From contig JAUDYN010000002.1 of NCBI GenBank assembly GCA_030407005.1, forward strand, positions 1-64,000: DNA of 64,000 nt, written 5' to 3'. The notes below the pieces were generated by a model that searched no databases, was not told the origin of the DNA, and was given only the letters and a program-made list of their open reading frames with translations. Position 1 is the stretch's first letter. Every line of letters begins with the position of its first letter. Source of the DNA: Desarmillaria ectypa. Its lineage: Eukaryota > Basidiomycota > Agaricomycetes > Agaricales > Physalacriaceae. The position numbers and the translations under genes were made by a program. Below are positions 19,603 through 43,763 of the stretch, one piece after another.

Positions 19603-21400
19603 CGAGGAAAGAAATAACCGCAAAGAGGGTCGGACGAGGTATGGCTGTTCAAAGGAATTGAGCCTTTAAACACGATGAAGAGGGTGGCATTCGCCTTGTG
19701 AATGACAATTGTTACTTTTGCTGCCATTGAAGGGAGTGGTGTATGAACTATTGATTCCGTCAATGCCCGAAAGAACACCAGTACGAAAAAAGACCTTTGT
19801 GGAGTAATCAGAGGGGGACCTCTATTCAGGACTATTCGTAGGGATCGTACACAACACTTCTGACTCTGAAGAGCAGGATAAATTGGAGTTGTCACCGTAG
19901 CGTAGCCCGGGTCCAGTAATCTTGGAGGTCCTGAAGAGAACTGATGAGCGAAACCCGAGTTGTGAGTAAAAAGGCGTAAACAAGTCAGATTGCAGAGGTT
20001 ATTGGGGAGAGCGCTATAGCACAGGACTCTGCACTTGTGAGGCGTGTCCGGCAGAATTCGGGGATATTACAGTAGCTCTCGGTCTTTTGCTACATTTCGC
20101 TGGCGAATATGACATGGTTTCACCTCTACCTCGATCCGCGAAAGATAGCGGTGTTCACTGAGTTGATGAACGATAGATACCATGGCGGAGCGCTGAAAAT
20201 TCAGTCAATCAATCAGACTGGTAAAGTGGATAACCGGCTCACCTAAGTGCGGAAAAAAATATTCGATAAGATGGGACGTACATTGAACAATGGAACATAC
20301 TTCACTGGTACAAAACGGCATCCTAAGGCAGTGACTAAGATAGAGGCGTCCTTCTACAATTCATGATACTGATCCAAGAGGATCAGAATGAAAATGTAGG
20401 ACGATAGTAGCAGACAGTCGACCCCCTGGGCCTTATCCTAGGTTGATCCTTTCGATTCTGGAACAGCGTCGAGTTCCGGATCGTCTGTGAATTGCATCCG
20501 TAGATGAATGGATATTTATGAATAAACACAGGTATTTACTCGAGGGATAAGACCAGAGAACTGTAGACAGCCCTGCGCGTGAATGGTCAAAATTAAAGTG
20601 ATCCCAAAATAGAAGGAGGCGAGTCATTCTTCGCCGCTGCCGTCCCGGCATCATCTGCTCTTTGGTTCGAACTGGGATGAACCCGATTCGGAGCCACTCT
20701 CCTTTCCTTTAGCCCTTAGACAATCTTTCTTAGCATATGAATGAAAAACCGTGATTATAAAGCAATCATTGTTGCTCTGCAGCATCACTCCGAAACAGTG
20801 CTTACCACTCCTGTACATACAATATTGACAATACTACACTCGACCCTTCAGTAGCTTCACTTCTCCTAATCGATGCATCTGAAAGTACTCACATTAATCA
20901 TGGTATGATCTACTTCTGTTGGGGGTCTCCAACCACATATGTGGTAGACACACTGATCATGACCGTCTCATCAAATGAGGCGACAACTCATTTACCTCGT
21001 ATCTAGATCTCAACGGCGACCTGGTATCCTGGTATCCTCAGTAATAAACTTACTCCCCCATGATACTGAGAAATTTAGAACTGGTGCTGGCTATCAGTAA
21101 CTTTTTTAGAAACTCCCTCTCCACTCTAGGCTCAGGAAGTATCACCTTCCGCTACGTATTCCTCCCATTCAAAAAACACTATTGGCACCTCCTCATTCTC
21201 AACTTGAAGATTTCCGGGGATCATCAGTCTACCTACCTATGCCAATGTAGACCTTGATCGGAAAAATGTAGATTTTATCAATGTTATGATCAATGCACTA
21301 TCGGGAGAAATTGTACTCGCTACTAGTCCATTATCGCGAACTCCAGTTTGTATTGCAAACATGTTTATCGAGCAAAAATCTGTTCATGTAATATCAAACT
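19603..21400. other. No recognisable gene
   Basis: The first 200 bases should contain the promoter of the 203-aa gene. ORFs at 19533-19895 (-), 20433-20654 (-) and 21060-21257 (+) are short and unrecognised; the first largely overlaps the C2HC gene's first exon. CpG content is normal up to about 21.3 kb and then falls. Confidence 0.35.
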
Positions 21401-24400
21401 TGGTGTATATGCATTTTGAGGAGGCTAAAGCATGACACATAAAGGGCAACTGGGCACATAGAATTTTGCGAGTGGCATTGTGAGCATGCGCTTCCATTTT
21501 CTCGCATGCATTGTCACATTTGCGTTTGTGTGTGCGAGGGTGACAGAAATGTGTTCAAGATTTTTTGTCTGAGAAATACATCCTAGAGTTTTTCAGTGCC
21601 GCTAGAGACATCGGAACATGATACCTTTCAGCAAAGATCAGAAAGTTGAAGACTCTGTTAGTGTTACCTCCTCACAGTTCAATTCAAAACTCAAGGGCCA
21701 AAAATTGAAGCTCAAGAGCGACTCTTTGAACTGAAATGTCTGTTAAATTGATAACATATATAAAAAAATAGTCAAAGGGAATGTCTAATCCCAAGGAAAG
21801 TGGTGTACTTCATTGACAGACTTGGAGGAACATGTTGAAGACTAGTTGAAGGAAGTAAGTAAAATCTCTCCAGCTGGCTGCAGAGGGTGGAGTACAATAA
21901 AAAATTATATCATAAAATTATCAAACACACCTAGATAAAATGATTAAAAGCCAATACTACAAAAATATTAGAAGCAATGAAAAGTTAAAACAGTTCAGCT
22001 CAAGTTAAATGCAAATGTGACACATCATTACATTTGTGAGCTCACTTCTGCTCACTTGCCATTGATTTCCAACCACATGCATCGATCATATTAAGCCTTG
22101 CCTTCAGTTTCTGTATGCATGCATGACTTATTTGTGAAATGTGTGGATTTAAGAGGTGACCAGTTCATCCAAAGTTCAAAAAGGTAAGATTTTGCAATCA
22201 TTTCAATGTGAAATGGTGCTGTGATGGGGGAAAAACTTTCTAAAACCAATACTTATGTGTTTATAACCTTTTCATAGTATTAAATTTCTTCCCTAAGTCA
22301 CAGAAAGCAATAGTCATCTACCAGTACATGTCCAGGAACTCGGAAAAAGTCAAGAAAATGCAAGAAGATGATCCAAAGAAAACACTGCTCCTTTACTAGT
22401 ATCCTTGAAATGGAACTAAGTTTTAATAGGCCACTCAAGCTAATGTATCCATATGCTCGCAAACGCATGCAAGTTGAATGCAAGCGAATGCATTTGAATG
22501 CAGTTGAACACATGCTCGCAAAATTCTCCTGGCCCAGGGCAACTGATACCATCCATCATGACAGTATCTACAGTCACCATCATGATCGTCACTGCATCCC
22601 ATGAATCTTCTTTGCTGGTCAACTTGAGGAAAAACTAAGGGCAGTTCATTGTTGTGATGTGTGGCTGTACATGCGGTTTTCCTATCCTGATAAGTAGGTG
22701 ATCTCTTCTACAGTGATTATAACTGACCTTCAATCATGTAGGCATTAGTGTCAAGGGTTATTATACTGCCATGTCTACTAATTTGTGGTACAAATGTTCT
22801 TTGTCATGATCATCATTCATACTGATATCATTTTTCAGGCCGCTGAGACCTCAGAATATATGGCACACCATCCATTGGCCCTCTACATATTCCAAGTCAA
22901 TCTATTAGAGGATCCTTGCATGTGTGTCCCTTTCTGATTTTTTTCCACCAAATTCCCTGTCTTCTTCTGTGGTACTAATGCTACCAATGCCCCATCTCAA
23001 TTTTCCTTCAAGACCCATGACTGAGAACATCCTTCATCATTTTCAAACTGAGGTATCTCTCCCACCTCATGCTGTGGTCATTACTAAGTTTGATAAAGAT
23101 GTAGGTTTTTGCTACAAAGCATAACATATTTCATGAGACAGCACAGGACAGATACTTTCATGTGGATGGTCTCGCTGCTATCAATCTAGACTATTGACCA
23201 TTTTGAGTGGACCAGAAATTTCAGGGTATGTTGCCTCTCATTCTAATTCCCACTTTGAAACTTCCTGGCTGATAGAGATATCTACATTTATCTCCTGCTA
23301 GTTTGTGAAGGTGCCAATGCCAATGCAGTATTTTACTTCTGCCATTGCCCTGAGTATTCCTTTCAATAAGAGAGCTTCCATATAGTAAGGATGTGCTCTA
23401 TGCATCCTTATCTCTTAACATATGAATCATCTGCTCTGCATGGCACTGACAGAAAAGAGGAAAAAGAGAAGAAAAGCATAGAACTATATGGATTTGTTTT
23501 GCTTAGCTCCTGTTAGTTAAGCCATTCATTTTTTATCTGGCATAGCTACTGACTCTGTAGCATATAAAGAATATATAGTGTTTTTGTAGTATTCCTGTAC
23601 TCTCCCAGCTGGAAAATAGACAAGCATCTAATTTTTCTGGAGACCTTATATATCCAATTAACCCTCTGCTTCAAAAAATGACTGAAGACAGGCAAAGAAA
23701 TGACACAACTGGCCTGTGGTTTCTTCCTTAGATTGATTTCTATTTATCTTGGAATAACATATAAACAATTGCTGTATACAGATTCTCATATCAATTGACT
23801 ATCCTTTCTGCTTGACCTTCCAACTCTTCTTTCCAGTTTGAGGCTTCCTACTTGTGATTGATACAAAGCACTTTTAATATTGGACCTTTTCTCTCAGACC
23901 ATTGATGTGCTCAGTAACAGGTAAGTGCAAATATAGATTACCATGTAGATCAACAATCTAGATATGCAAAGTGACACACACACACAATCATCGATGTTTC
24001 AGTTTTAGGTTGAGTACAGTAGAAGCACTCATGGTTCCCTCTAGATTATGACAATCAGGTAGGTTTGTCAACTAAACACTTCAAATTCAACTTCTAGATG
24101 TGTCTGTATAAGAGAAACTAGTTGATATAATGACTATATGGGACTGGTTTGGTATAAGAGATAGTGGAAATATTTTAAGACTCAAATTAAATTCATCTAG
24201 ATGAGCTGTTAAGTGTATAGATAGTAATTTCACTGATATTGATCATCATACACACTAGTTTGCAAAGAGCATAGTCATTCTGGAGTACACTGACTTGAGA
24301 TGAAGAGCACACTGGCTAGCATGGTGATTCTAAACTTAAAAGCATTCTAGGGCTTATTACAATTTAATATTCAAAGTTTATTCTGATTCAGATGACTCTC

Positions 24401-25278
24401 ACAACATTCAAATCATTTAAGTCAAGAACAAACAAAAGCCTTTGATTGTAGGCAGCTATTGTCTATTAGCACAAAAACTTGGAGGAATGTTTTCCTGCCA
24501 TTAGATGCATTCATGCTACTGATTTATAGTACTTTATCTAGGAGCTTATCTAGACTAATTATAATGGGTACAAGGTTTTCCAAGCTAATTGGTATACATG
24601 CACCTCCAGGATGGGAGTGGTTTGGGTCTGTTTAAGTTGGAGAGATCATCAACATGGAAGGCATGCAGAGTTGACTCATGTAGATGTCACCTTAAGTCCA
24701 TTCCATTATCTAGAGTGATACCTTATGTACAACATTGACTATTTATGCCAAGCATCCATTATAGCTCTTTACTAGGACTTAGTATGGCCTAGAGAGTGTA
24801 TTTAGATGTTATTAAATTCCCAAAATCTATAGGTAGACAGATACCTTGCATATCACCACACAGTGAGAATAGCAGTACATCTTGTCCTAACATATCTTGC
24901 TTCATAAAAGATTGGCATGAGCTTTACTCTGTCCTCTTGTTGATGAATCCCTGAAAGACCTTCAGTCCAGCCAAATAATACATGCCATTCTCTTGCCATC
25001 CCTGGCACTATTTGTGCTCCTTGAGTATCTCTTGAGGGTCATGAAAGCTGTAGACAATGACTCAGAAACAATGCCCCAAGGGGCTGTAGAATAGATAGGC
25101 AATCATTAAATACAACAACTTGCATTCAAAGAGAAGATTTGACTAACTACTATTTAATAACAAAGAAAGCTTTCAAAGCCTGTATGGAAAGCGGAAGAAC
25201 TGATCAAAACTATATGTAAGGTATGTAAGTCGTCCATTGTACAGTATGGAAGGCCAATGGTGATAGGGAGCGTAGCTT
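21400..25278. repeat. CpG-stripped degenerate block 1
   Basis: About 3.9 kb of TG/CA-rich sequence has very few CpG dinucleotides; many 60-base lines contain none, whereas neighbouring DNA has several per line. No ORF over 90 codons is convincing. The right-hand 440 bp (about 24840-25278) aligns in inverted orientation to 39154-39630. There, most CpGs of the 39-kb copy read TG or CA here. The block is best explained as old duplicated or transposon-derived DNA decayed by CpG transition. Its right edge is abrupt at 25279. Confidence 0.75.
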
Positions 25279-26782
25279 CATGAAAGCAAGGATGATGAGA
25301 ATAATCCGTGCTACAATGTATGCAATGCCGCCAACAATCACTAATGTCCCTGAACTGACGGCAAAAAACGGCTCCCAATTCGGTGAGCATGGAAGTAACC
25401 ATAATAGCTTCGGTATATACTTGAAAACCCCCAACTTCCACATTACTGAAGCACAAGGTAAATGGCCTCCTACAAAGAGTCCAATCAGAACTGTGAGAGA
25501 TGAAAACCGCCATAGCACCATTTCAGTGTGTGATGGAAAGTCGAATGACCAAGCTACGCAATGGAAGGCCCCAAATAACGATCCTACACCAATCATGATT
25601 GCAAAGCGTGTCTCCCATTCGTCTCTGATACCAGAAGAAAGTCGATAGGTACCATCTCCAATGTCCCGATGTTCATGTCCAGTTTCCAAGACAATAGGGA
25701 CCGTTACTTCCGCGAGAAACCAGGCCAACCCATTTATTACAGAGTCAAAATTGACAGGAGAAGTAGATGTTTCGAAATCGTTTGTTTCCGACATAGGCCG
25801 GAAGTCATTCAAGTCCGAACCATCCAAAGAGATGTGATACTTAACATTCAGTGGCTTATACCACCACAAGCAGTAGGTGATGATGCTGAGGCCTGCGAAT
25901 GCGAGTGTGCACAGTTCAAGAAGGGTAATGGGGAGATTCTGAATAGCTCGAGCGACGCATTGCGCAATAAACCAAGCTATTTGGACAATAGAGATCGTTT
26001 TTGACAATGCGTCCCCTTTACTTTTGTCCTCTATTGTCTCTGCACTGATTTCCGCCAGGTTTTTCACCAAATTTGGTTGACGTTTAAGTGTGTTAATATA
26101 AACAAGTTCTCCTGGGACATCTACAGTTTCCACTGTATCATGTATACTATCGGGTGAGGATCGAACATTCAGCGGTGAAGTGTCCTCTGACATGTCTTCG
26201 TGAACTGATGATAGCAGTGAATCACGTCGTGCAAAGGATATAGTGTCATGGGCATTGGTTGCTCCATCAACGGCTTCCTTTTTCCCCTTGTAGTAAAAAC
26301 CCCCCATGCTGAGAAAAAATCCATGAGCAAGCGTCGGCTTGGATTCGTCATTTTTCTCTCTCCACATGTGAATCACTGATCGAATGGAAATATCTATTCC
26401 TGTTGGTCTCCACTGTAAGTCGAATAGTTCCCGATGACATGAAGTACTCACCATGACGCAACTCCCACGCCACTATAAATTGTTCTGCGGCCCATGAAAC
26501 GATGGCCTCGGGTGCCAAAATAGCGATGGCCATGATCTTTGCACGTTCAACTACACCAGGGATCGCACCCTTGGTAGTGATGTTACGACCGGGGACATTA
26601 GGATGTACAGCAAGCCAAGTGCATGCGAATATGGTGGCGAGACAGCTCCATACGATATTCCAAAGTGTCCGTCGATCTTCTGGAGATGTAGACAAGCCTT
26701 CACTATCCTCTGGATATATCGGTGCTCCAAAGGCGTGATAAGTGAAAAGGAGAGAGGTGACGACCATAAAAATTCGATCCAT
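25210..26782 (-). CDS. Multi-pass membrane protein, copy 1 (506 aa)
   Basis: Two exons (26782-26452 and 26399-25210) are joined by a 52-bp GT/AG intron that splits a Gly codon, giving 506 aa. The N-terminus (MDRIFMVVTSLLFTYHAFGA) is a likely signal peptide. Further hydrophobic segments lie near residues 38-58, 80-100, 245-263, 270-290 and about 372-430, with one at the C-terminus. Conserved-looking signatures are HPNVPG, LAHGFFLSMGGF, DKSKGDALSK (about residues 235-244) and LWWYKPLNV. I recognise this pattern from a large uncharacterised integral-membrane family expanded in mushroom-forming fungi; its function is unknown. All but the first 14 and last 22 or so codons lie in a tract matching the inverted copy at 37692-39153. 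The final codons lie in the CpG-poor block. This copy has an intact start, so it is the better candidate for a working gene. Confidence 0.85.
25279..26740. repeat. 1,462-bp inverted identical tract, left arm
   Basis: This tract is the reverse complement of 37692-39153, with equal length and no difference in any part I compared, including the intron. Immediately outside, similarity continues but drops sharply on both sides. Confidence 0.88.
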
Positions 26783-27837
26783 GGTGGCGATTCGGGGACT
26801 TTGGGAAGGATTAAGCTGTAACGCACAATGTGAAAGATTGGGATAAACCGATTATATCGACAGCAGGGACTGAGCCTGAGAGATTGGTTGTTTCTACTCG
26901 AATTCTCCTACCATATGTTGGATTATTGAGTGGTGGATATAATACAACATAATACACACCAAAATACTGTGCAGAGGATTGATTCCTTTGGCGTGCTTGA
27001 GCTTAGGGATGCAGGGACCCTCATTAAAAGTTAGCCCAATGAACGTGCCATTTGGAAAGATGTGCATACAAGTAATGTAATAAAAATGGGTCACGGATGC
27101 AGCGAAGGAACGTATTGTGGGGAATCGACGATGGATGTTATGAGAAGGGAGAGTGGGCTGCGTGCCCATTGATAACTATGCTTACCACAGCAGTGTGACG
27201 TGGTTCGTGACATACAGGTTTCTGGGATTTTTACCATACCGGTCTACTCAAGCTGTTAAGCATCACAGCAGTCTGGCAGGTGACGAACTCGCACTGATCA
27301 AAATGCAATGAAGGATCTGGAACAGAGATGGAATTTAGACACGTGCTATTTGGGATACACCCTCCTGATGTAGTATCTGTTGCAGCAGCTCCCGTCGTTG
27401 TCGTCATGGATGGCAGCTTGAGAGTCGCACATTGTTTGTTTCAGACTGTGAGAAGCAGTCTAGTCTACGTCGGGAATAAAGATGGTGTTGGGATTTTGCT
27501 GGAAAGTTCTAAAGGAGCAATGCATCATCATGGCAAACGTCGCTGACTGAGCACGAGAGGAGTAGAAAGTTGTAGTACATTCTAGACTTTAGTGAAAAGT
27601 AGTATAAATATGAACTCTGTAGGAGCCATAGAATAATAAGTTCATATTATCTGGCTGGACCAGCCTGGAGTCTAACCTTGCGCAACACCTAGGATTCCAA
27701 TAGACAGCAGGCATCACCTATGACAGAAGTGACAAGGATACAAATAGGCTCAGGGTTCATCAGGGTCGGCACAGCAGATCCCCCCTGATCTGCCGCCAGG
27801 GAAGGGAAGAAGAAAACAATGAAAGCTACGAATGACA
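26783..27837. other. Upstream region of membrane-protein copy 1, no clear gene
   Basis: The first 50 or so bases align loosely with sequence upstream of copy 2, so this is the ancestral promoter side. ORFs at 26894-27169 (-) and 27328-27546 (+) are short, with no recognised domain. Confidence 0.35.
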
Positions 27838-28195
27838 TGCGCAAAATAAAAATTTCTGGTGCGACTACACACGGACACCTCCTGAGCTATTTTTTCTTCG
27901 TTCCTGGAAGAAGAATAGTTCAGCAGCTCATCATATCACAGAAGGACAATATACCTTGACATGGGACCTCTCAGCCCCAACTCCGTGAGCGGATTGTCGA
28001 ATACGTACGTACAAGGAAAGGATTATTATTGAGAGTTGCGAAACAGGGTCTTGATTGGCTCTTTCTTATGTCAAAACCTTCTATCATATCCAACGTCGTC
28101 TCAGCGTAGAGGCACTCGGGTATCGTAGTAATAGTCGACAATCATAATTATATATCACAGCAATATTGCAGAAGTGCAGTATTCGTATCCTACAA
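27838..28195 (+). pseudogene. Repeated coding-like fragment, copy 2 (broken)
   Basis: A degraded relative of 13670-14045 in the same orientation. Shared peptide pieces (ETG, ALSY, TFYHIQR, LGYRSNSRQS) occur in one frame but are interrupted by stops and small indels. It abuts a fragment of the C2HC gene, so the junction near 28200 is a rearrangement point. The family is not recognised. Confidence 0.5.
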
Positions 28196-28208
28196 TAATC
28201 AGGGGGAA

Positions 28209-28587
28209 TGCTCGACCCGCGCGGTCCGAAGGGATACGATCCAAGCTTATGGATGCGGGACAGAACGAGATGTCAGGAAATGTATGCAGCATGGCTAAAG
28301 AGGAACGGAGAGAGGGATGGGATTTTTAACAACGAATTTTGGGTATCATAGTAATCTCAAGGTGGAATATCATAGGAAATAGACTCGTGTGCTAGGCTAA
28401 ATGTCGTAAAATCACTTTTGCCGCCAGCGGGATTCTTGTGGAAGTCATCTCGGAAAGAACCGGGAATTACCATATCGAACCTGACAGAGTTTGGTGTTGT
28501 TAGTTTCAGAAGGCCAGAGTCCAAGTCACGTCACCTGTCTGAAGCTTACCATCTACGACATCAGGCTTCACCTCTTCATCAACCGTT
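28209..28587 (+). pseudogene. Fragment of C2HC gene plus its 3' flank
   Basis: 28209-28353 is close to the 3' part of the C2HC gene at 43764-44171 in inverted orientation. It encodes GYDPSLWMR-like sequence and the CQEMYAAWLKRNG block, but the His ligand is altered (D in place of H after WMR) and the zinc Cys pair is missing. 28354-28587 matches the 3' flank of that gene (43770 down to about 43535) with more divergence. It is a truncated duplicate and not expected to be functional. Confidence 0.75.
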
Positions 28588-28592
28588 GTGAT

Positions 28593-28840
28593 TGTTGTGA
28601 AAAACAGGGGATGAATAGATCAGTTCGTTCCCAGTTAGTACATGCGCGGTGTCAGGCCAATAGTATTGCGCTTGGCTGAGCTCTGCAAACGCATGCAGAT
28701 GTATGCTACTGTACCTACTTATATACTAAATGCTAATGTACTAGAATCTTCTACAACTTTCCTAATACTTCTCTCTTAATCAGCAAGTTCGGCATGATGC
28801 CGGATTTCCATCATCTCGGCTCAACTCTCAAATCCCAACA
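28593..28840 (-). mobile_element. Solo LTR, family 1, copy A
   Basis: A 248-bp element read on the minus strand begins TGTTGGGATTTGAGAG and ends with ACAACA. It carries a TATA-like tatataagtagg near its centre. It is bounded by the 5-bp target duplication GTGAT at 28588-28592 and 28841-28845. No internal retroelement sequence adjoins it, so it is a solo LTR left by LTR-LTR recombination. The homologous locus near 43520 lacks it, giving an empty site. Confidence 0.92.
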
Positions 28841-28845
28841 GTGAT

Positions 28846-29240
28846 ACAGTACTATTTACTCAACATATTCTTTGTACCACATGAAAATCGATGTCCAACA
28901 CCAAAAAGACTGACGTGCGCTACACGCCTCGTTTTTCGGGCCTCATTCAATGCCTCCGGCCCTCAAAATACCAATTTTCGTCCCTTCTCATTATGCAGGT
29001 TGACATGTCCCATTCGAGGTCATGTTGAGTCATTCAGCCGTCTTTCTAATTCAGTTAGGATTTCCGTTCGGATCAGCGTGAAATTCGGTAGTACGCCCAA
29101 ACAGTTATAATGTTGTTTTGATAATTATCTCATCTTAGACGCCTACAGTCTAGGGAGACATCCATGATCATGAATCAGCAGGACGATGGTTCTCGGCTCT
29201 TTTAAAAGCCAAATAATACTGGTACGGCCTTGCTATGTCC
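28846..29240. repeat. Inverted duplicate of 43160-43520
   Basis: Continuing past the solo LTR, this stretch aligns in reverse to 43520 down to about 43165 (for example the cgatgtccaacacc words). With 28209-28587 it forms a duplicated segment of about 780 bp excluding the LTR. No gene was recognised inside it. Confidence 0.7.
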
Positions 29241-30484
29241 TGCCTGTTTCTTTCTTAACTGACGTTGGCACCAGGTTCGCAGTGCAAAATGAAATTTCCG
29301 AGGTGGGACGTCTCTTTCCTTCTCTCAATATTCTCATCATGTTGCGCTACAGTAGCAGCTCTGCCTCCTTGTATCGGCTATTGGCCTCTGCCGCTCCAGT
29401 TATCCGGGCAGTCCATTGGCTACCATCAAACCCAGTCATTTCAATTATCCTCCGTATTTTACGAAATCCCAACTTCCTCTATTGATTGTCATCAACCGAG
29501 GAAGGTCTGGGCTTTGGCGTGTATACCCAGCTCTGGCAATACCATTATGATTTGACGATCTAACTTTACGCAAACACACCGATTTCCACTGTGGCTCAAA
29601 CTGAGTGATACTGCGTACGTCCATTTAACCGATTCTTGTAAATCTTTCTAATGTCTCACCGGTGATCAATAGGTTGCCGCTACGCGATCCGTTTCGTTTA
29701 CATCACAGATCTAATTTCCTCCGCCGTGCTAGTCAATACTTACCATGAAGCAGTTCGTGAATACTCGTACGTTCTATGGCCTTCCGTAGCGAATTCATTC
29801 TCCTTAACTTGCAGCAATATTATTGTCAGAGGGCGATCAGTCGCGGCAATCATTTTTTTAGCAAATAGCGGCGCTTAAGATCATGGCGTCTATCAGCTCC
29901 CGAAACAAGCGTGGGTGTGAGAGAGCTATTGAATCGCTTGCATGCTGTGCGTCTAGGCGGTCCGTCTTAATGATCATCTTTGATAGGCAGTGCCCATACT
30001 TTCTTTCCATCTTAAAATCGACGACATTTCACTTCATTTCCCCTCGAGCTCATTTTGACACTTTCCTTGAAATGTACAGGTTATGGGACATCGCAGGTAC
30101 TACCTCACGCGATCCTGGAAATCAGTACGTTAATCTGACTTTGGGGCTGTAGTGCTTCGAAGCGAAGGCCTCCATGCCCTTCGCTCAGAAAACTCCTGGA
30201 GACCCGTTATTACCGTTGATGACGGCCGTTCACAGCACATATATGAAGTACGGCTGGGGTCTGATGGGCAGAACCCTGACCAAAAGGCGTCGGGATTCCG
30301 ATTGTGAGTTTTTTTTCTCTAGGCATTTCCTGATATTGACTTTCATCAGACACGAAGCAAATGCTCCTTCAATTACGATCAAGGCATGGTATCGACCCAT
30401 GGCCAGGAGGAGCAAGAAGAAACTGCTCGGAGCTGCGACATGCTCCCTGGTCCAGCTCGAAACTCAGTCACATAGTACGCGCCA
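29241..30484. other. Unassigned; possible small secreted protein
   Basis: The frame 29289-29555 (+) starts MKFPRWDVSFLLSIFSSC and has the profile of a signal peptide; it ends after 88 residues with several Cys. It could be a small secreted protein or a first exon, but nothing else supports it. ORFs at 29883-30152 and 30174-30488 (+) are unrecognised. The promoter of the gene at 30485 should lie at the right end. Confidence 0.3.
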
Positions 30485-31595
30485 ATGAAGCTTACACCGA
30501 CCTCCTCTAATCACACATCTCCAGAAATCGAAGTGTCACTCGTGCCTCAACCCAACAATATCAACACCAATTCATCTTTATCACCTATCATATTCCTCCG
30601 CGTAAAGCCTGCATCGTTGACCGAGCTCCAGGAGAACGTCGCCATCCCAACTCACAACGTACAAGTCTTCCCCTCTCCATACGTCGTCCAATCTCTACCC
30701 CCATCTCCCGATCCTAACCATCTCAGCCCTAACATCCTCGGGCTTTCGATGACGCCTGCGAGCACCGGCAGTGGTGGCAATACTCCCCGTCGGTCGTACG
30801 ACGATATATTTGAGCCTCTCCTGCTATCATCTAGCTCTCTCCTCAGTCCACTGACGGTCCCCAGCCCCCTTCCTCAGTACAGCGATATCGACGAACACCT
30901 CTCAGAGTTCAACCTGGCAGAACGTCTCATCTCATCTTTTACCATTTACCGTGAGCTGAAATGCGCGAAACTAGAGAATGATTTCGAGGCTGCGTTTGCG
31001 AAGCAACAGGAAGAATGGACGTATGTCGCTGCCTTGGTACGTCATTTTTCTAATCATTAACGAACTATGGATCTAAAATATATTCTGTAGCTCCTAGCAC
31101 TTATTGCGTACGTCTCATTTCGACTCTCTCGAGTAACATTCAACTCTAACCAGTACTTCCCACAGCGTGAACACTGCCGTTTTTTCCGTCACTCCTGATT
31201 CCCAGTTCGAAGTGACCTCCTCTGCCCGACTGACTGTAGCCACTTCCTCCATAACCTCCGGGCTCGGACTAGTATGTGACGTATGGTTCATCAGCCGATA
31301 TCGGTTTAGCCATACGTCCACTCTCACGCAAAGATCTCTAGACCTCTTCGGGACGTATTTCTTCTTCTCGTTCTCCGCACGCATACCGATGTTGTGTCTA
31401 TTGGTGTCTTCGATGTGCTTGTTGGCGTTCTTGGGTATCATGGCGTACGTCGTCAGTTCTGATATCGTCTTGATTGTTGGTGTCTGTGTAGGGGTGGGGA
31501 TGACGGGGCAGGTATGGGTGTTCGTAGCGTATTGGTGTGCAAGAAGAGTGGCGCGTGGGATAAGGGTGGTATTCAGAGAAAGGTGTTGCGTGTAA
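30485..31595 (+). CDS. Membrane protein with C-terminal TM bundle (332 aa)
   Basis: Three exons (30485-31036, a 17-nt exon 31091-31107, and 31166-31595) join in phase for 332 aa. The first 150 or so residues are Ser/Pro-rich and disordered, followed by a helix (LERLI-like AERLISSFTIYRELK) rich in charged residues. The rest holds hydrophobic helices: around LLALIAVNTAVFSV, GLGLVCDVWFI, the FFFSFSARIPMLCLLVSSM segment and a final long VGVCVGVGM stretch. This disordered-tail plus helical-bundle layout, with DVWF and SARIP signatures, is one I associate with an uncharacterised Agaricomycete membrane family. Function is unknown. The microexon sits inside the first transmembrane helix. Confidence 0.8.
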
Positions 31596-32463
31596 CATTG
31601 TTTGCTGTCTCATGTACCGCATGCCGATGGAATACTTACGTTGGCTTCGCCTAGAGGATGTTTTAATATAGAATAATTTATCGAGGACATGATTATGTAT
31701 CTGATACAAGTGGATCCCGGAATTATGATTGCAATACTATACAGAAATCCCTCATTGTATTCCTCTCCCACCGCTACTTGTGATGATCTTCTGCTCTGGT
31801 TATTTCTTCTAATCGATCGCTTGCCCCGAGTACTTTTCGGGCACCTATCTACAGGGCCGCTCGCCGCTGAATAAAATTCCACCACAGCTACTTCTTTGGT
31901 GGTCATCAACAACTAGTGAGATCCCTAGGTAATGGCTTCAAGTAACATCCCCCGTACACCATATCTGACAGACCGTCGCAGGCGTCTCATCGTTTCTTAC
32001 CAATTCTAATAAATTTTTGTCAAGACTTTCATGTACCCAATGCATGTGACGGTCATTTTCCTGAGGACAGACGACAAGTACGATAACGACAGAGCGAAGC
32101 GAAGGAGGTGCCGATCACGTGTTTTACTGGAACATTGCGTCGCGTTCCGTTCGAAGCCTAGCCTTTGCCCCGCTCCTACGAATAGACTACTTAATGCTGA
32201 TCGATCGTTGGTGTTGGTTGAATGCAGTTTGTTGTGGTTGGTGTTCATGTTTGTGATCAAGGCAAAAGAAGTTCTGCGGCGGCATTTTATATGGGGAAAG
32301 GGGTAGCTGGTGTCTCACCGCGGCGTTAACGGCCCCGGAGGTAGTGAGACATTTTGTAGACACCTGTATTTGCCTGGATACGTCTATTGGTCCATATGTA
32401 TGACTTGGTGGCTCCGCGAGTGCGAAACACTAGTATAGTAAATTAACACAGTATACGTCCTTG
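31596..32463. other. No recognisable gene
   Basis: Overlapping ORFs on both strands (31610-31912 -, 31689-31874 +, 32006-32260 -, 32031-32306 +) are short and look like mutual shadows. A terminator for the 332-aa gene is expected here but no signal is distinctive. Confidence 0.35.
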
Positions 32464-32973
32464 TGTTATGGATATCGAGTATCCGTAAACTCGGTGCATG
32501 AGTTAACGCATGCTTACACTCGGCCTTCTCGGTCCTAGTAGTGACTCACACATAATTTTCTCTTCCTTTGTCTATTCTTCTTGCTCATACTAGAATATAA
32601 TAGAACATTGTGGAATATTCATGACTCGAGCCCTTTAGTATATAAATACCGTCTGTAATACTGTAAAAATCAATCAATCAACTCATCTTCAACTCCACTT
32701 CATTGTGTGAACTAAGCATCTGATCGGTTACGCCTAGCGTTTGCTGAACAACTCGTTGGATACGCCAAGCGCTTTCCGACACCAATCCGAAGACTCCGCC
32801 TAGCGCTTGTCTTCACCTACAGCCCGTAATAGCTCCGCGCTTACCGGCTGCTTCCTGCAGTAATTGCTTCGCGCTTACTGACCCCTTTACCTCGCAAACC
32901 GGACCTCTCAGGTTTCCTTACGAACCATTGCCGGAACTCATCCTATTCCCTAACGACATACATCTTTATAACA
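32464..32973 (+). mobile_element. LTR-like sequence, candidate only
   Basis: A segment starting TGTTATGG and ending TATAACA contains a TATA box (tatataaatacc near 32640). About 70-230 bp downstream it has five degenerate copies of a GCCTAGCG/CGCGCTTAC-like word. That resembles the U3-R-U5 layout of a fungal Copia LTR. No target duplication was found (flanks CCTTG and TATCC), so the borders and the identity are uncertain. Confidence 0.35.
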
Positions 32974-35199
32974 TATCCTACCTCGCTTCGATCATCCATT
33001 CTCACCCCTCACTCTCATATCCTGATTTCGGCAGATTCCTAATACCTTGGAATCAACATGACTTCTTTCACATAATGCAAGGTCAGCGGTAAAGATGAGT
33101 GTCATAATAGGAGTAACATACCCCTTCGGTGGTGCCATGGTCGGTCTCACCTGTATGTGAAACGGGCCATGTCAATAAGAAGCATCCCCCCACTCTCCGA
33201 TATATCCGCGTTCAGCTAAGGTTAGATCAACTCAGCCTGAGTGCTGCGACGTGAGTTCGATGAGTAGCACTATCTGATGTATTACTGTACCATTGTATAT
33301 GCCCTGTCGACTTGCAAAGACGCAATGTACCACGGAACTGTCAGGCACTTACAATAGTCAGAAAACATCAGACTTAGCGGCATGGACTTGAATCTATAAT
33401 ACCCAATATGCTGGGAGATAACGGCGAGAGCTAGACCAACGAAAGTCCGGGATATGTAAAGATAGGCAGTCCATGCCAGCCCACCTGCACTTTCCCGCTT
33501 TGATGAAGTAAAGAGTATAACATAACGGGAAGGTTTACCTCATCTCATACTTATGCCGAGAAAAACAGCACGCGCATGGCCGGACGATCTGCGACTTTCA
33601 GTCCCAGCGTTTACTATAGTTCCAACAGACTGAATGGAATGATCATTCACTCGACTATCTCAGAAAAAGGACCTTTCGTCCATATCATCCGCAGAAGAGT
33701 TATGATTAAAGCGCGAAGCGGTCCAATTAAATGATGAAAATTCTAAGTTGGACGTTGATCTGAAAGGATACTACATACCTTGTCCGACGTGACGCCTGTG
33801 GAACAAGCAAGCCATGACGAAGCAGTAATAGGACGACAAGCGAAAGAGAATCTATACGATCCTCTGCAAATTAACCAAAGAACACTGGAATCCGATAATA
33901 CGCGTACACATAATGACAATGAAGCTGGTATGAGGGCATCTTTTGAAGAAACATGTCCTTGAGCGACATGAGGACCTCGTTTCCATCCAACAATGACTGC
34001 CGCCCTCCTCGCATTCAAGCCACTCACAAAGATTGGAGAGCGGTCCACAATCCTAGTTAAAGCAGCCATCGAACGACCCAGCATAATAGAAGAAAATTTT
34101 GCCTTGAAAATGTGCATAGCCCTGAGAAGGCGGCACGATTCGGTCGTTGATATCCCTCCCGGTAGAACATCGGGTCTCAGCGCAGGCAATGATAATTCAC
34201 CTGATACAGTTTCAGAATAGCGTAATCATGAATGCAAAGGAAGCACACTGGCGACAAGAAAACAACGCTCTATGACATCCGGGAATTCGGAAACCCCTTT
34301 GCCCCATGCGCGACCGTACTTTTCGGTATATTTGGTACCAATACAATCGTGAGATAAAATAAGAGCAACCTGTGTTATCCTTCGTAAACAAAGTAAATAA
34401 TACAAATATATAATGGGAAAGACGCGGACTGGATATCACTTCGAAGCCGGAATAACAAATATCCGCTGTAGGCGAACGTCAGCCCACTGACAGCAACTCA
34501 TGACTGTGAAGTTGTCCGTGTTATTTGCTGCCATCAAAATATGGGAGGCTATTCAAGTACGTATTCAACAAAAATGTGCTCACCCGAGATAGCTAGCAGC
34601 ACATTGGAGCAAGCATTCAGCTCTCGCCATTTCAGTGCAGGCTGGCAGAAAAACAGGTGCCTTACAGCAGAATGCAGTCAATGAGCCTAAAGCGTGCGTA
34701 ATTTTCGTAGCGCATATGGCAAAGAATGGTCATAGGCGCATGGCTTGTGGCTCCGATATATTCTGCCTTTGAGGTACAAGGTCCGACCGTGACAGAGAAC
34801 CCTGTACGAGTTTCAGGACAAGGAAAGTCGTCTTCTGTGACCGGCGTACTATGTCCTGCTGGGAATCTCATAAATCATTCCACCATATTGCGCCGCAGCG
34901 GTATAAACCAAAGAACAGTTCGGGGCGCAGCATGGCTGGATTGCAGGTCGTACGCACCTTGAGGATTTCAAGGGAAGGCCGCCATCAATGAGCTAGATAA
35001 GTCTCTGTCCCTCCTTCACTCGGCGACCGGCCTTATGCCCCGTCCCAACCGTTTTGATCCAAGGCAGTGCGAACAGCTAGGCTCCAGCTCAACGGTCGTT
35101 ATTTCGTGAGAAAAGTATCATGAATTGGGGAAGGAAGAATATTCGTCTTGGCCGTGGATCGACGAAGATAAGTAAGCAATATGGTGGTCGTAGATTGCA
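32974..35199. other. No recognisable gene
   Basis: The frames 33780-33962 and 33993-34220 (+) are hydrophilic and balanced (for example VEQASHDEAVIGRQAKENL) and could be the cytoplasmic tail of a membrane protein. A long minus frame, 33743-34189, overlaps them. No domain was recognised and splice joins were not convincing. Confidence 0.3.
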
Positions 35200-36260
35200 G
35201 ATATTCGTCATTGGCCTGTGGTAATCCCAACGGAATCAGAAAGACGCCAGCATGAGTTAACTTGACCAAGTATCGGCTAGCTCAACCTGCATAACGAGAA
35301 TAGGCTGCTTTGCTATATCACAGGTTATCAGACATCGGTTTGACGCATCGACAGAATTGAAACGTACCCAACGACAGCAACACCTTTTTCGTTGGTGCTA
35401 GATCGGGTCAAGAAGGTCTCCGTGACAGAATTCTCAGTAATCATCTTGGTCGGTGGAAAGACCTTGATTTCCGTGCTTGTTTCTGCAGTGGCTTTCTTAT
35501 TCTAGTAGGCTAAATTTAAGCCTCGTCAGAATGACAGCGAGCATGAAAAACCAACTCAATATTCTCCTCCTGCTCCCAGGGTTTGTGTTCCTCTTCCTCA
35601 CACGTAAATTCTTCCCTATACAAGAATGTCAGAAAATTGCTACATAGAAAGAGTTGACGGACATACCGAGAGGTGAGCCATCGCGGTCCCGAAGACCTAG
35701 CCTGGCCGTTCACCTTCCTCGACAGCATCTTTGGTTCCTTGTTACTGTATTCACGCTCCACAGCTTCGCGCTGTTCCCTACACACAAACGATGATCAATT
35801 CCTTCAAACGCGATACCACCCACCCAGAACGACTCACCTTTCTCTTTCCTTCTCTCTCATCTTCTTCGTCCTCGCTGTACCGCTATCTCCAGCATCAGCA
35901 TCAGCATCAACCTCGATCCCTAAACCCCTCGCGAAATCTACAAGCTCACGGTGCGAGAATTTCTCCTCCTTCCTCAACATCCCCGCAAAAAGCCACCGCC
36001 TCTTATTGTCCTCTTCTTTGTCTAGAGTCTCACGTTCCTTGCAGTGTCTTTGGAGGCTGTCCAATATGAGGAGGACCTCCCTAGAGTTCCTCGGGTATCA
36101 TGAGATGTGAGACTGTAGAGGGCGGTGGAGCCCTGGATATGTTCTTGTTCTTTCCATCGTTGAGAAAGAAGTGCGAAGATAGACACAGACTTAGACCAGG
36201 AGAGATATAAATTTCAATGCGCACATGTAAGATGGTGTTTACTTTGTCCCCTGGTGTTTC
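35200..36260. repeat. Direct duplicate of 43290-45210
   Basis: Pieces align in the same orientation: 35210-35330 with about 43300-43385, and 35340-36260 with 44240-45210. The core 35392-36039 differs from 44285-44933 at only about six positions. Outside it, similarity falls to roughly three quarters, with indels. Confidence 0.8.
35516..36157 (-). pseudogene. Decayed copy of the 190-aa charged-protein gene
   Basis: The three exons and two introns match the intact gene at 44410-45093. Exons 2, 3 and the 3' half of exon 1 are nearly identical. The 5' part of exon 1 is diverged and about 54 bp shorter. Reading from the equivalent ATG (36157) gives MERTRTYPGL and then a TGA after only 19 codons. 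The next Met of the intact gene is also lost (ATG reads ATA). Unless an unseen upstream exon bypasses the stop, this is a pseudogene. Confidence 0.75.
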
Positions 36261-37600
36261 TTTTTCACATTTTTCAAGAAAGGAGTATTTACTCGGAAGG
36301 CTGGCTAACGTAAATAAATTCGTTTACTCTGTTATATCATCCGCATCTTCATTTTGCGAAGAAATATAACCAGTTTCTGCCGAGGAAATAGACTTCGATC
36401 AGCGCTCAGATAAATCTCGACCGATACCATTTATTTCGGAGTTTTGTGGCAAATGCTACAACCTTCATTAGTATTCGTCTTACGAAGGCATCAAGAAGGA
36501 GATCGGGAGAAAAGTTACTCCACGATATAACATGACCATCTGAGATTATGATGCGGGTGAAACTGTGTCGCGGAGTTTGCTGAGCAAGCTTATAAATTGC
36601 TGAAGACGCGCTCAGCCGCATACGGCAATCCGGCAATCGGAGCAACGTTGAAGTGCGCGATCCTTCGCGCACCTTCTCCTTGAGTCGACAGTCTGTCTGC
36701 TCAGTCAGCAATGAGTCAAACATGGACACTAGTAGATAATAGTATATTCTAGAAGTACACACCTTGTAGTATATATACCGGGCAGACCAGCCCACCAATA
36801 ATGAAGACAGATATTCTCACCCACTTCTCCCACACAGTCAAGTCTCGTGGTTTACCACTACGCTCATAACCTCTATTACACACTCTTTTACAACATAAAT
36901 GCAATGGCATAAGTCATGAGACGATGAACGATAAAACCTCCGAAACCTGCCCTAAAGAGCATGTGATCTCGACGCGCTTCCCGATTCCCCAACTGTAGGG
37001 TTCTCCACTCCATGTCTCTTAGGCTTTTCGTCACACCCACACTCCACCAATACGTCAATGCATTAGAAAATCCAAGGAACCTCATCGATACCTGTATAAT
37101 CTGCAGAACCCTGGATCAGTCACGAGCCGATCACAGCGCTCGGGTGCCTACAGCACGTGCCTTGAAACATACTGCATGATTCATTGATGTTCTTTGACTT
37201 TCCCAACACTCTTATTCGACCGGTAAGGTGACAACCCCAGATGATGCACAGTCCTCTTACGGCCTACTTGACAGTGTCGTGGTACGCATGGCATCAACGT
37301 GCATGCAACCACCTCTCTCCTCTCTCATAACATCCCTGACACATCCTTTTCGTTGCATCCATGGCATTTATTACATTCCCTGGTATGTACATCTTTCCGA
37401 ACAATTCACGCATTCGGTTAACCGTCAACGAAGGATCTCGCATCTGAAGTTGTGAAAAGAATCCTCTATATATATCTTTGGTGCTTATCTTGACATATTC
37501 TATTCACCACTTAGTACTCTGACGCGAATGTAGGTAACTTCGCATACCAATGAGCTCTTTCTTTTCTCAGGATCGGTTCCTGGGGTCAACAGAATATTGT
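36261..37600. other. Intergenic, with a membrane-protein gene remnant
   Basis: 36888-37085 (-) encodes a tail-like exon with RFLGFSNALTYWW, similar to a CpG-poor piece at about 55930-56050 (-) that reads FVGFANALIYGG. Both look like the last helix of a seven-helix receptor-like protein, but only this exon is left here. 36406-36798 (-) is an unrecognised 130-codon frame. Promoter-side sequence related to copy 1 begins near 37600. Confidence 0.4.
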
Positions 37601-37677
37601 ACGCTCCGCTATACAGCTTAATGCTTCGCGAAGTCCTTCAAATTCCCACCATGCGTCAAGTTTTACGGCCACCATAT

Positions 37678-39222
37678 TTTTCCTTTTCACCTATCACGCC
37701 TTTGGAGCACCGATATATCCAGAGGATAGTGAAGGCTTGTCTACATCTCCAGAAGATCGACGGACACTTTGGAATATCGTATGGAGCTGTCTCGCCACCA
37801 TATTCGCATGCACTTGGCTTGCTGTACATCCTAATGTCCCCGGTCGTAACATCACTACCAAGGGTGCGATCCCTGGTGTAGTTGAACGTGCAAAGATCAT
37901 GGCCATCGCTATTTTGGCACCCGAGGCCATCGTTTCATGGGCCGCAGAACAATTTATAGTGGCGTGGGAGTTGCGTCATGGTGAGTACTTCATGTCATCG
38001 GGAACTATTCGACTTACAGTGGAGACCAACAGGAATAGATATTTCCATTCGATCAGTGATTCACATGTGGAGAGAGAAAAATGACGAATCCAAGCCGACG
38101 CTTGCTCATGGATTTTTTCTCAGCATGGGGGGTTTTTACTACAAGGGGAAAAAGGAAGCCGTTGATGGAGCAACCAATGCCCATGACACTATATCCTTTG
38201 CACGACGTGATTCACTGCTATCATCAGTTCACGAAGACATGTCAGAGGACACTTCACCGCTGAATGTTCGATCCTCACCCGATAGTATACATGATACAGT
38301 GGAAACTGTAGATGTCCCAGGAGAACTTGTTTATATTAACACACTTAAACGTCAACCAAATTTGGTGAAAAACCTGGCGGAAATCAGTGCAGAGACAATA
38401 GAGGACAAAAGTAAAGGGGACGCATTGTCAAAAACGATCTCTATTGTCCAAATAGCTTGGTTTATTGCGCAATGCGTCGCTCGAGCTATTCAGAATCTCC
38501 CCATTACCCTTCTTGAACTGTGCACACTCGCATTCGCAGGCCTCAGCATCATCACCTACTGCTTGTGGTGGTATAAGCCACTGAATGTTAAGTATCACAT
38601 CTCTTTGGATGGTTCGGACTTGAATGACTTCCGGCCTATGTCGGAAACAAACGATTTCGAAACATCTACTTCTCCTGTCAATTTTGACTCTGTAATAAAT
38701 GGGTTGGCCTGGTTTCTCGCGGAAGTAACGGTCCCTATTGTCTTGGAAACTGGACATGAACATCGGGACATTGGAGATGGTACCTATCGACTTTCTTCTG
38801 GTATCAGAGACGAATGGGAGACACGCTTTGCAATCATGATTGGTGTAGGATCGTTATTTGGGGCCTTCCATTGCGTAGCTTGGTCATTCGACTTTCCATC
38901 ACACACTGAAATGGTGCTATGGCGGTTTTCATCTCTCACAGTTCTGATTGGACTCTTTGTAGGAGGCCATTTACCTTGTGCTTCAGTAATGTGGAAGTTG
39001 GGGGTTTTCAAGTATATACCGAAGCTATTATGGTTACTTCCATGCTCACCGAATTGGGAGCCGTTTTTTGCCGTCAGTTCAGGGACATTAGTGATTGTTG
39101 GCGGCATTGCATACATTGTAGCACGGATTATTCTCATCATCCTTGCTTTCATGCAATTACGCTCCTTACCACCATCGGCCTTCCATACCGTACAATGGAC
39201 GGCTTACATACCTCACATATAA
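37678..39222 (+). pseudogene. Multi-pass membrane protein, copy 2, start disrupted
   Basis: This is the same two-exon structure as copy 1, on the opposite strand. The coding body is identical from 37692 to 39153. The last 22 or so codons differ at a few residues (FMQLRSLPPSAF here, FMKLRSLSPLAF in copy 1) and keep more CpGs. Upstream of 37692 the copies are only loosely similar. The position matching copy 1's ATG (37652) is out of frame because of a net 1-nt deletion in the signal-peptide codons, and no other in-frame ATG precedes the body. It is called a pseudogene for that reason; an unrecognised upstream exon or start could rescue it. Confidence 0.65.
37692..39153. repeat. 1,462-bp inverted identical tract, right arm
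   Basis: Partner of 25279-26740. The first mismatch on each side is immediate (37691 and 39154), while weaker homology continues outward for tens of bases upstream and about 450 bases downstream. Confidence 0.88.
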
Positions 39223-39782
39223 TTTCGATTATACTTTCGGCTTTCCGTACAGGCCTTGAACGCTTTCTTTGTTGTTAAATAGTAGTTAGTCAAATCTTCT
39301 CTTTGGACGCAAGTTATTGTATTTATCGATCGCAAATTTATTCTACAGCCGCTTGTGGCGTTGTTCTTGACTGCTTGACTCCGGCCTTCATAGCCCTCGG
39401 GAGACACGCGAGGAGCACAAATAGCCTCAGGGATGGCGAGCGTATGACGAGTGTGTTATTTGGCTGGGCTGAAGGTCTGTCAAGGATTCATCAACGAGGG
39501 GACAGAGTGGAGCTCACGCTGATTTATTACGCAGCGAGATACGTTAGGGAAAGATGTATCGTCGTTGTCAGTGTACGGTCAAACGGAAAAGGTACTACAT
39601 CGAAAGTGCATTGTAGCAATTGTAAGTAAGAATCTGCAACCGGAAAGATGAGTTAGAAGCATTGTTTGTGATAAGATCCTACACAGCCATCGGGTACATG
39701 TTTTCTGGACAGAAATCAATCGGAGGAAGAAAGTGTATGTCAGTCGTGTTATTTTGTTGCCTGTATTCAGTCATTTTTCGTA
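39154..39782. repeat. 3' flank of copy 2, CpG-rich homologue of 24840-25278
   Basis: 39154 to about 39630 aligns to the inverted left-hand flank. A 108-codon frame (39303-39629 +) is present here but not preserved in the CpG-poor copy. Whether it is translated is unclear. The remainder to 39782 is unassigned. Confidence 0.6.
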
Positions 39783-41171
39783 TCAGACAGGGCAATTGGA
39801 TATGAGATCCATAGAAAAATTCTGATGCTTCTCTGTTTTCCAGCTAGAAGAGTAGAGAATTACCACCAAATGTCGTACATTCATTCCTGCTAAAGAGTCG
39901 GTACCTATGGACGATAAGATACGAACGGAGATGGTGCTGGAGGATGTAATTGTGCTCGGTTGTGAGTCAGGCAATTTCGTTGCAGGACGATTAAAACAAA
40001 GCATCAGGCAGGAGTTTTAAAACTGAAACGTAATGTTGAGGATGACGGATTCGCTCGCAAAGCAGGGGGTACGCACAAAGGTGCTCTCAATTTCACTGTT
40101 GGAAACTGGGCGGGACTGATGAATGGTGTGCGACATATTCAAGGCAGGCTGGTGCTGGTAGAGGGGAACTTGCGGAAACTTTTTGACGATTATCCAACAC
40201 GGAAACCAAATGCTCCAGTCAGGGCAGGATAGTAACGCTTTTAACAAAGAAGGATCTTGATGAAGGGTGGTATTCTGCGCCAGAAGGGAGTGTTAACATG
40301 CTCATCGCTGTAATCAAGAAGACACCTACCTCGTATAAAGCAAATGTATAGGGAATTGTTTTTACCTAGATGTCCCGAAAACAAGTGGGTTAACACGTTG
40401 CTTAGGACAATGGTGAGCATGAAAAAGGAACGCAACGCGTCGGGATCACGTGCTTTATGGGGAGATTTCTGACCGCGTGAAGCTTTGTACCACGGGTACA
40501 GTTCCAGCATGAGCGATAACTTAACATAAATGGATGGTCTTGGATGCCGGTCGCCTGAAAAATACTATCGGTAAGGGTGACGGTCATAGCAAAGTATATT
40601 CGTACTACCGCCATAATGACCTTTACGAAGAAAAATAGAGCCTGCATCATTGAACGTCAGCTATGCATGTCATCACTACGGGGGATATCGTCTACTTATC
40701 AAGATATGCATCGCCCGCACACCACAATGACGAACCACTCTTTACTTTTCCTCAAGTTTACCTTATATGAGGATGCGTTGAGGAACACGATGATGACTAT
40801 GAAATCGCCATCGGTTGCTTGTACGTGTCGAACGGATGATTTTGAGTTTACCTGAACAGAGAGTTTCCCGATCAAATTATTTGCGGTACAAGCTGGAGTC
40901 TGCAATGATATTGCCAGTATTAGTAAATGACTGTCTATTGGTCGTAAGGTTGATAGAATCTACGCTTTTCGATGAATGGCATCCGTGGGTTTTTCCCGTG
41001 TTCGCCAAAGGTTTTGATAGTGTTTCCTCCATTGGGAGGAATACGGAGTAAGGGATGAAAGGTCCTGAGCTTAGAGCAGAGAAGCAATTCTGAGGGTACT
41101 GACGCTACGAAGGAAGAGGCTGGTGAAGGAGGCAGGGATAAGTAGCTCACAACAAACCAACGACCTATCAC
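39783..41171 (-). pseudogene. Decayed membrane-protein gene
   Basis: Minus-strand frames at 40402-40650 (a VVRIYFAMTVTLT helix), 40241-40510 and 40699-40905 (a FIVIIVFLNASSY helix) suggest transmembrane exons. The stretch 40560-41000 aligns in the same orientation to about 56575-57010. Frames are short and broken, and no start or complete exon chain could be built. The family may be the seven-helix type inferred from 36888-37085, but that link is indirect. Confidence 0.45.
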
Positions 41172-41271: not shown

Positions 41272-41499
41272 TGTCGTAAAAAACGGGGGATGAGGACATC
41301 AGTTCGTTCCCAGTTAGTACATGCGCGGTGTCAGGCCAACAGTATTGCGCTTGGCTGAGCTCTGCAAACACATGCAGATGCTGTACCTACTTATATACTA
41401 AATGCTAATGTACTAGAATATTCTACAACTTTCCTAATACTTTTCCCTTAATCAACAAGTTTGGCATGATACCGGATTGCTATCTCTCAAATTCCAACA
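41272..41499 (-). mobile_element. Solo LTR, family 1, copy C
   Basis: A 228-bp relative of the 28593 element in the same orientation, with small internal deletions. It is flanked by a perfect GAAAA duplication (41267-41271 and 41500-41504). No internal element sequence adjoins it. Confidence 0.9.
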
Positions 41500-41627: not shown

Positions 41628-41870
41628 TGTTGGGATTTGAGAGTTGAGCCGAGATGATGGCAATCTGGCATCATGCCGAACTTGCTGATTAAGAGAGAAG
41701 TATTAGGAAAGTTGTAGAAGATTCTAGTACATTAGCATTTAGTATATAAGTAGGTACAGTAGTGTACATCTGTATGCGTTTACAGAGCTCAGCCAAGCGC
41801 AATACTATTGACACCGCGCATGTACTAACTGGGAACGAACTGATCTATTCATCCCCCGTTTTTCACAACA
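41628..41870 (+). mobile_element. Solo LTR, family 1, copy B
   Basis: A 243-bp LTR on the plus strand with TGTTGGG at the left and CACAACA at the right. It is flanked by a perfect CTATT duplication (41623-41627 and 41871-41875). It retains eight CpGs. It lies 128 bp from copy C in the opposite orientation. Confidence 0.93.
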
Positions 41871-43159: not shown

Positions 43160-43763
43160 CCAGCATTATCTGGAATTTGTAACAGTCGAAAACCATTGGC
43201 CTGTTAATTTATGATCATAGATGTGTCCCTAAACTGTGGGCATCTAAGATGGGATAATTATCAAAACAACTTTATAACTGTTCGGGCGTATTACCGAATT
43301 TCACTCCGGTCCCAAGGGAATTAGAAAGACGCTAAAATGACTCAACTTGACCTGGAATCGTTCACATAACGAGAAGGGTTGAAATTTGGTATTTTGAGGG
43401 CCGGAGGCATCACAGACATTGAAAGAAGCTTGGAAAACGAGGCGCATAGCACATGTCAGTCTTTTTGGTGTTGGACATCGATTTTCATGTGGTACGGAGG
43501 ATATGTTGAGTCAATACTATTGCACTGCAACGCAATGGAAAGGTGAAGCCTGATGTCGTAGATAGTGAGCTTCAGACAGGTAACGCGAATTGGACTCTGG
43601 CCCTCTGAAACTAACAACACCAAACTCTGTCAGGTTCGATATGGCAATTCCTGATTCTTTCCGAAATAACCCAGAAATCTGATCCTGCTGGACAGCAAAT
43701 CTGATTTTCCGACATTCAGCCGAGCGTGCGAGTCCATTTCCTATGATATTCCACTTCGATATA
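43160..43763. repeat. 3' flank of C2HC gene B, duplicated at 28.35-29.24 kb
   Basis: This stretch is inverted relative to 28354-29240 and lacks the solo LTR present there. Its 43300-43385 part is also related to 35210-35330. A frame at 43517-43801 (-) overlaps the gene end and has no known domain. Confidence 0.65.

Follow-up and report, generated by a model that had tools for sequence, protein, structure and literature searches.

The window analysed here, the first 64,000 nucleotides of contig JAUDYN010000002.1 of the basidiomycete Desarmillaria ectypa, contains two inverted paralogous genes, A and B, that share a long identical stretch embedded in diverged homologous sequence. Gene A lies on the minus strand at 25210..26782, with exon 1 at 26782-26452, a GT-AG intron of 52 bp at 26451-26400 and exon 2 at 26399-25210, the ATG being located at 26782 and the stop at 25210. 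Gene B, on the plus strand at 37651..39222, has the same structure, with its intron at 37981-38032. The gene A model is based on an open spliced frame, on hydropathy and on alignment to relatives encoded at four other paralogous loci of this genome (labelled C2, C5, C27 and C31), which are 30-52% identical in the aligned pieces; its inferred product has 506 aa with several hydrophobic segments, and A and B are predicted to be copies of a membrane-protein gene. No Pfam match was obtained for the 414-aa open frames P0001 and P0002, both of which lack exon 1, and a PDB sequence search with P0001 was likewise without a match. When compared with A, gene B has an ATG (37651) that does not share the reading frame of the remaining gene, the region concerned being 37651-37691, and no start codon in frame was encountered in the interval between the stop ahead of the identical core and the core itself; this frame shift may represent a real lesion, a recent change, an alternative first exon or an error of the consensus within a run of T residues.

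The identical core, the putative conversion tract, spans 25279..26740 (minus strand) in copy A and 37692..39153 (plus strand) in copy B. None of the 1,462 positions differs between copy A and the reverse complement of copy B, as the initial annotation had claimed for arms of equal length, and the separation of about 11 kb given there corresponds to a spacer of 10,951 bp calculated from the coordinates. The core lies entirely inside the inferred gene, is nearly all coding, and comprises 470 whole codons, 231 fourfold sites, 62 CpGs and the whole 52-bp intron, with no difference between A and B; zero differences set a 95% upper bound of 0.20% on its divergence. A DNA search of the whole assembly (40.6 Mb; query 24800-27000), carried out with a procedure that passes over very common words, returned four matches, two of them being the query and its partner and the other two short, at 55 and 83 bp.

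Homology continues in register beyond both ends of the core at much lower identity. On the 3' side, the copy A flank (24876..25278), which holds the last 22 codons and the stop of gene A, agrees with the copy B flank (39154..39558) at 327 of 403 columns (81%), and on the 5' side the flanks at 26741..27075 in A and 37376..37691 in B agree at 197 of 308 columns (64%), rising to 70% in the nearest 94 columns. There are therefore 76 mismatches in 403 columns on one side and 111 in 308 on the other, against 0 in 1,462 between them, and the identity profile shows a sharp step at both core ends. Past an insertion found only in copy A (23892..24855, ends approximate; roughly 0.96-0.98 kb), which is built of pieces matching other contigs, the 3' homology returns at 73% over 341 aligned columns, in outer blocks located at 23522..23891 in copy A and at 39586..39928 in copy B. 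In the initial annotation the flanking homology was described as clearly lower in identity upstream, over tens of bases, and as roughly 75-80% identical for about 450 bp downstream; its extent was underestimated on both sides, since aligned 5' sequence can be followed for about 330 bp and the 3' homology resumes after the insertion. Because the core is contained within this larger, diverged and in-register homology, the duplication is, on the evidence of the alignment, an old and inverted one, bigger than the core, with genes A and B transcribed divergently.

An identical run of this length is not expected by chance. In a permutation test over 2,173 columns with 187 mismatches, the longest identical run reached a maximum of 179 and a mean of 64 in 10,000 permutations, and the observed run of 1,462 was never attained, which rules out chance identity. 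The combination of an identical in-register core with old, diverged flanks on both sides is best explained by recent ectopic gene conversion, in either direction, between the inverted paralogues. We assign this reading a probability of roughly 0.87; it is the one put forward in the initial annotation, and the rival explanations tested against it failed. Ectopic (interlocus) gene conversion between paralogues is an established process, of which this locus is a clean new example. The mosaic structure and the identity at silent sites are direct observations, and it is from these that we infer the recombination event.

Strong purifying selection on the protein might be invoked to hold the two copies alike in a core that is nearly all coding; it is however hardly credible here, since the 231 fourfold sites and the 52-bp intron are unchanged, and immediately beyond the tract the protein's last 22 codons do differ between A and B, with 5 residues changed. 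The presence of the intron within the tract also rules out cDNA-templated copying, so that neither selection on the protein nor an RNA-templated copy explains the core. A maintained chromosomal palindrome of the Y type, with long and uniformly near-identical arms, was considered as well and rejected, only 1,462 bp being identical and the adjoining arms being 64-81% alike. A further alternative is an assembly artefact, in which the core of one arm was filled in or polished with the sequence of the other. The exact identity over 1.46 kb is what cross-polishing would be expected to produce. Polishing, however, homogenises only arms that are near-identical and cross-map, whereas the adjacent flanks, at 64-81%, are still distinct, and the contiguity of the assembly (32 contigs, 40.6 Mb; host contig of 4.37 Mb) suggests the use of long reads, which would span a 2-kb repeat; an artefact is accordingly regarded as improbable.

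Under conversion, an old inverted duplication would have produced the two divergently transcribed paralogues, whose flanks then diverged. The presumed initiating lesion, either a break or a stalled fork, would have arisen in one of the copies and been repaired off the inverted paralogue 11 kb away, and the repair would have rewritten at least 1,462 bp, that is, most of the coding sequence together with the intron. The inclusion of the intron in the tract indicates that the template would have been DNA. The event would be recent, as the upper bound (95%) for divergence of the core, 0.20%, compares with about 17% for the 3' flank with its CpG columns set aside (Jukes-Cantor distance 0.17), which, given equal clocks, places it roughly within the last 1-2% of the separate history of the paralogues.

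The two arms differ markedly in the DNA that adjoins them. A two-state hidden Markov model (HMM), with parameters set by the analyst, delimits next to the tract in copy A a CpG-eroded domain at 21373..25186, with 19 CpG in 3,814 bp and an observed/expected ratio (o/e) of 0.14. The 3' flank of copy A has 3 CpG (o/e 0.19), and that of copy B is CpG-normal, with 25 CpG (o/e 1.15). Two of these 25 are retained in copy A, and 18 of the 23 lost sites now read TG or CA. The ratio of TG/CA losses in A to those in B is 18:0 (p=7.6e-6), with none in the reverse direction, and it is 7:0 (p=0.016) in the outer 3' block, which is also eroded in copy A. Among 13 comparisons of CpG loss the sole other significant one concerns the copy at 55.6 kb of a 250-bp element (8:0, p=0.008), itself within an eroded domain. 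TG/CA is elevated across most 250-bp bins of the eroded domain beside copy A, and TA is not; on the A side 38 differences are of the C-to-T type, 20 of them outside CpG (9 of these in CC). The erosion extends into the coding sequence of gene A, where the last eroded B-CpG site lies 24 bp from the tract edge. In contrast, the 5' flank of copy A is uneroded (o/e 0.71; bins of 0.67-0.84 over 26751-27500), so that the erosion adjoins one core end only, and an interpretation of the core as a CpG island surrounded by eroded DNA was discarded.

This decay raises the question of whether the arms could derive from a simple recent inverted duplication, the flanks having diverged fast through CpG hypermutation. 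The divergence of the copy A 3' flank is indeed inflated by CpG decay, and, as part of the A-side divergence is accelerated in this way, the figure of 81% overstates the age of that flank. When CpG columns are excluded, however, identity rises no further than 84.9% of 352 columns in the 3' flank and 68.2% of 261 columns in the 5' flank, transversions amount to 23 and 42 in the whole 3' and 5' flanks, respectively, and the CpG asymmetry of the 5' flank is without significance (9:5, p=0.42). A recent duplication is for these reasons very improbable, and conversion within an older duplication remains the preferred reading.

The cause of the erosion may be methylation; PF00145 methyltransferase matches above the cut-off are present at 4 places in the genome. 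CpG-type decay in basidiomycetes has been tied to methylation and deamination (PMC4352252). In an agaricomycete, CpG mutations were reported to be commoner nearer repeats, with hypermutation in genes and repeats alike, and repeat-induced point mutation (RIP) is said to leak into neighbouring single-copy DNA, which plain methylation and deamination are said not to do (PMC4014442). At this locus the region 21700-24870 gave 28 matches in the genome, namely the query, the copy B outer block and 26 partial ones elsewhere. Ten of the matching repeat places were examined, of which 3 are eroded (o/e 0.00, 0.00 and 0.07, one of them only 55 bp long) and 7 have ratios of 0.76-1.07. Being repeated is therefore insufficient, and erosion goes with the location of a sequence, not with its repetition alone.

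The CpG asymmetry and the closeness of the erosion edge to the tract edge are observed, and from them we infer a direction of transfer. On balance B would seem to have been the donor, the gene body of A having been restored to the limit of the eroded domain; B is favoured because the 3' side of A is CpG-eroded and the core is CpG-replete, and if A had once been eroded beyond the present limit, its CpG-replete core would have come from B. The repeat-bearing DNA 3' of A would separately have lost nearly all its CpGs, the loss reaching the last codons of gene A, and the tract starts about where CpGs return, as if the event had reset a CpG-replete gene body as far as the eroded edge. The C-terminal residues beyond the tract are divided on this point. 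At one position A has Y where B and all four paralogues have H, at another A has S where B and two of the four paralogues have P, and at two further positions A has L and T and B has S and A, with the C27 paralogue siding with A; the fifth differing residue is uninformative. In sum, two residues set A apart from the paralogues, and two set B apart from the C27 paralogue.

The opposite transfer, with A as donor and B as recipient, or several alternating events, is possible though somewhat less probable; it overlaps with the general conversion reading, and the CpG edge would lie near the tract because erosion stops near gene ends. Several observations count in its favour and against B as the donor. 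The two residues of A that equal the C27 paralogue, and in which B does not, are one of them. The start of gene B is out of frame and its core is nevertheless fully open, as if a decaying B had been overwritten by A; the frame loss would suit A as the working donor unless it is recent or a T-run consensus error. The HMM erosion edge (25186) lies 92 bp from the tract edge (25278/25279), outside the tract, and A retains 2 of the 5 B CpGs closest to the tract on this side. Eroded domains at other loci likewise have abrupt edges, so the nearness of the two edges may be due to chance or may mark the 3' end of the gene. The uneroded state of most repeat places examined also weighs on this side. Against the reverse transfer, erosion enters the coding sequence of A and continues up to a site 24 bp short of the tract, so that an A donor would be CpG-intact just beyond that point only by coincidence.

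A broader but doubtful proposal sets erosion and conversion in opposition: a silenced repeat domain would erode A from its 3' end, repair from the CpG-intact B would have reset the gene body, and the divergence created by CpG decay would fix where tracts end, so that concerted evolution of the paralogues would stop where the silenced domain begins. In a hypothetical variant that does not depend on direction, mismatches generated by decay would halt strand exchange and so fix the ends of tracts at the boundary of the domain. Less familiar in this case is the position of a tract end near a decayed domain's edge, which, coming from one locus in one genome, may be proposed as a hypothesis for which no report was found in the literature searched.

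Other repeat pairs were compared in the same manner. Self-comparison of C12:1-120000 (alignments of at least 200 bp) provided 15 pairs, each subjected to 2,000 permutations; pairs of the 250-bp element, and the pairs 23541/39909, 36593/92643, 49060/99407 and 91646/109153, were set aside. In two of the 15, A/B and a pair designated C1/C2, the observed run was unreached by permutation (0/2,000). Among the remaining pairs it was reached by 31 permutations for a long terminal repeat (LTR) pair, by 44, 45 and 100 for three others, these four cases being marginal, and by 185-1,787 for nine. As most control pairs are without such runs, a long run is not a general property of local repeats. The C1/C2 pair is in direct orientation at 35348-36301 and 44232-45236, flanking gene B, and a search of the genome with its sequence returned these two copies only. 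Its near-identical tract, at 35513..36039 in C1 and 44407..44933 in C2, has 1 mismatch in 527, with 4 in 118 in the left shoulder and 39 in 200 in the right. From this mosaic it looks like another conversion tract, possibly made up of several events of unlike age, and there would probably have been two recent homogenising events within about 20 kb. The right flank of C1 has an o/e of 0.48 compared with 0.95 in C2; TG/CA losses are 6:2 (p=0.29), without significance, and C1/C2 was for this reason rejected as a second case of a tract ending at a CpG edge. This asymmetry gives no support for a general rule on tract ends, a further point against the proposed role of erosion.

A parallel to the CpG-replete core is provided by a mobile element further along the window. 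The region 46892-55021 is a Ty3-like LTR retrotransposon (Pfam matches to reverse transcriptase, RNase H and integrase, with weaker gag/protease-type matches), whose LTRs of about 427 bp are about 99% identical. Its o/e is 0.88-1.18 inside, compared with 0.04 to the left (45541-46891) and 0.15 to the right (55022-56840), and it seems to be a young element that landed in an older eroded domain. Being CpG-replete amid eroded DNA, it indicates that newly placed DNA looks as the core does.

Eroded domains number five and cover 14.9 of 120 kb. At C12:96580-103345 (loci L014 and L036) and at the repeat loci L011, L021 and L022, kilobase stretches are nearly CpG-free, some with abrupt edges, and copies of one repeat have an o/e near 1.0 (e.g. 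L019 and L026) or of 0.0 (L022) according to location. The element of about 250 bp resembles a miniature inverted-repeat transposable element, with short terminal inverted repeats (TGTTG...), and occurs at 28593-28840, 41272-41488, 41628-41870 and 55607-55854, as well as at C12:104541, 105016 and 109279; its pairs are 86-97% identical, and of 6 copies inspected, 4 carry 5-bp flanking duplications (GTGAT, CTATT, AAATT and CATGG). Additional duplicated sequence of local origin, with 77-86% identity and in both direct and inverted orientation, is found at 13717-14043, 27873-29223 and 43159-43907, one piece of it being broken by the 250-bp element. A Fungal_trans domain, which together with the gene structure points to a fungus, was found by Pfam elsewhere in the window, Pfam gave no match on 10 further open reading frames, and Rfam (gathering cut-offs) and ARAGORN found nothing over the window. 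A search of the genome for 5.8S rRNA reported none among the 39 candidates scored of 1,299.

Comparable structures have been described in other organisms. Inverted gene pairs of Caenorhabditis combine a near-identical part with a strongly diverged remainder, for instance 100% identity over the first 297 nt with 59.6% overall, and their authors infer an active mechanism that maintains the inverted-repeat structure (PMC1803023). The divergent and convergent pairs of that study resemble A and B in being inverted homologous genes with an identical part and a diverged remainder; the identical arms in Caenorhabditis, however, include the sequence between the genes and the centrally placed 5' ends, whereas here they correspond to the gene body, are separated by an 11-kb spacer and have one edge by a CpG-eroded domain. 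In Aspergillus, paralogues of the same region have identical or highly similar parts, with donor and acceptor unrevealed according to the authors (PMC12844118); that study compares two species, whereas the present case concerns one genome, and its main text does not use the words "inverted", "RIP" and "methylation". The CpG-biased, RIP-like decay of Basidiomycota (PMC4014442, PMC4352252) is similar in that decay from CpG to TpG is tied to repeats; the hypermutation of PMC4014442 spans genes and repeats alike, in contrast to the sharp domains found here, and "gene conversion" occurs 0 times in these two papers. In Zymoseptoria tritici, gene conversion is reported to be commoner in H3K9me3 heterochromatin, with RIP active in the same genome (PMC10294615); these data come from meiotic products, and the abstract is silent on a tract between a pair of paralogues that ends at a decayed domain. 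The D. ectypa locus is valuable for its setting, since only one of the two arms adjoins a domain in which CpG loss serves as a clock. It amounts to a natural experiment on whether genes are rescued by ectopic conversion from mutation linked to repeats, and on whether such decay in turn limits conversion.

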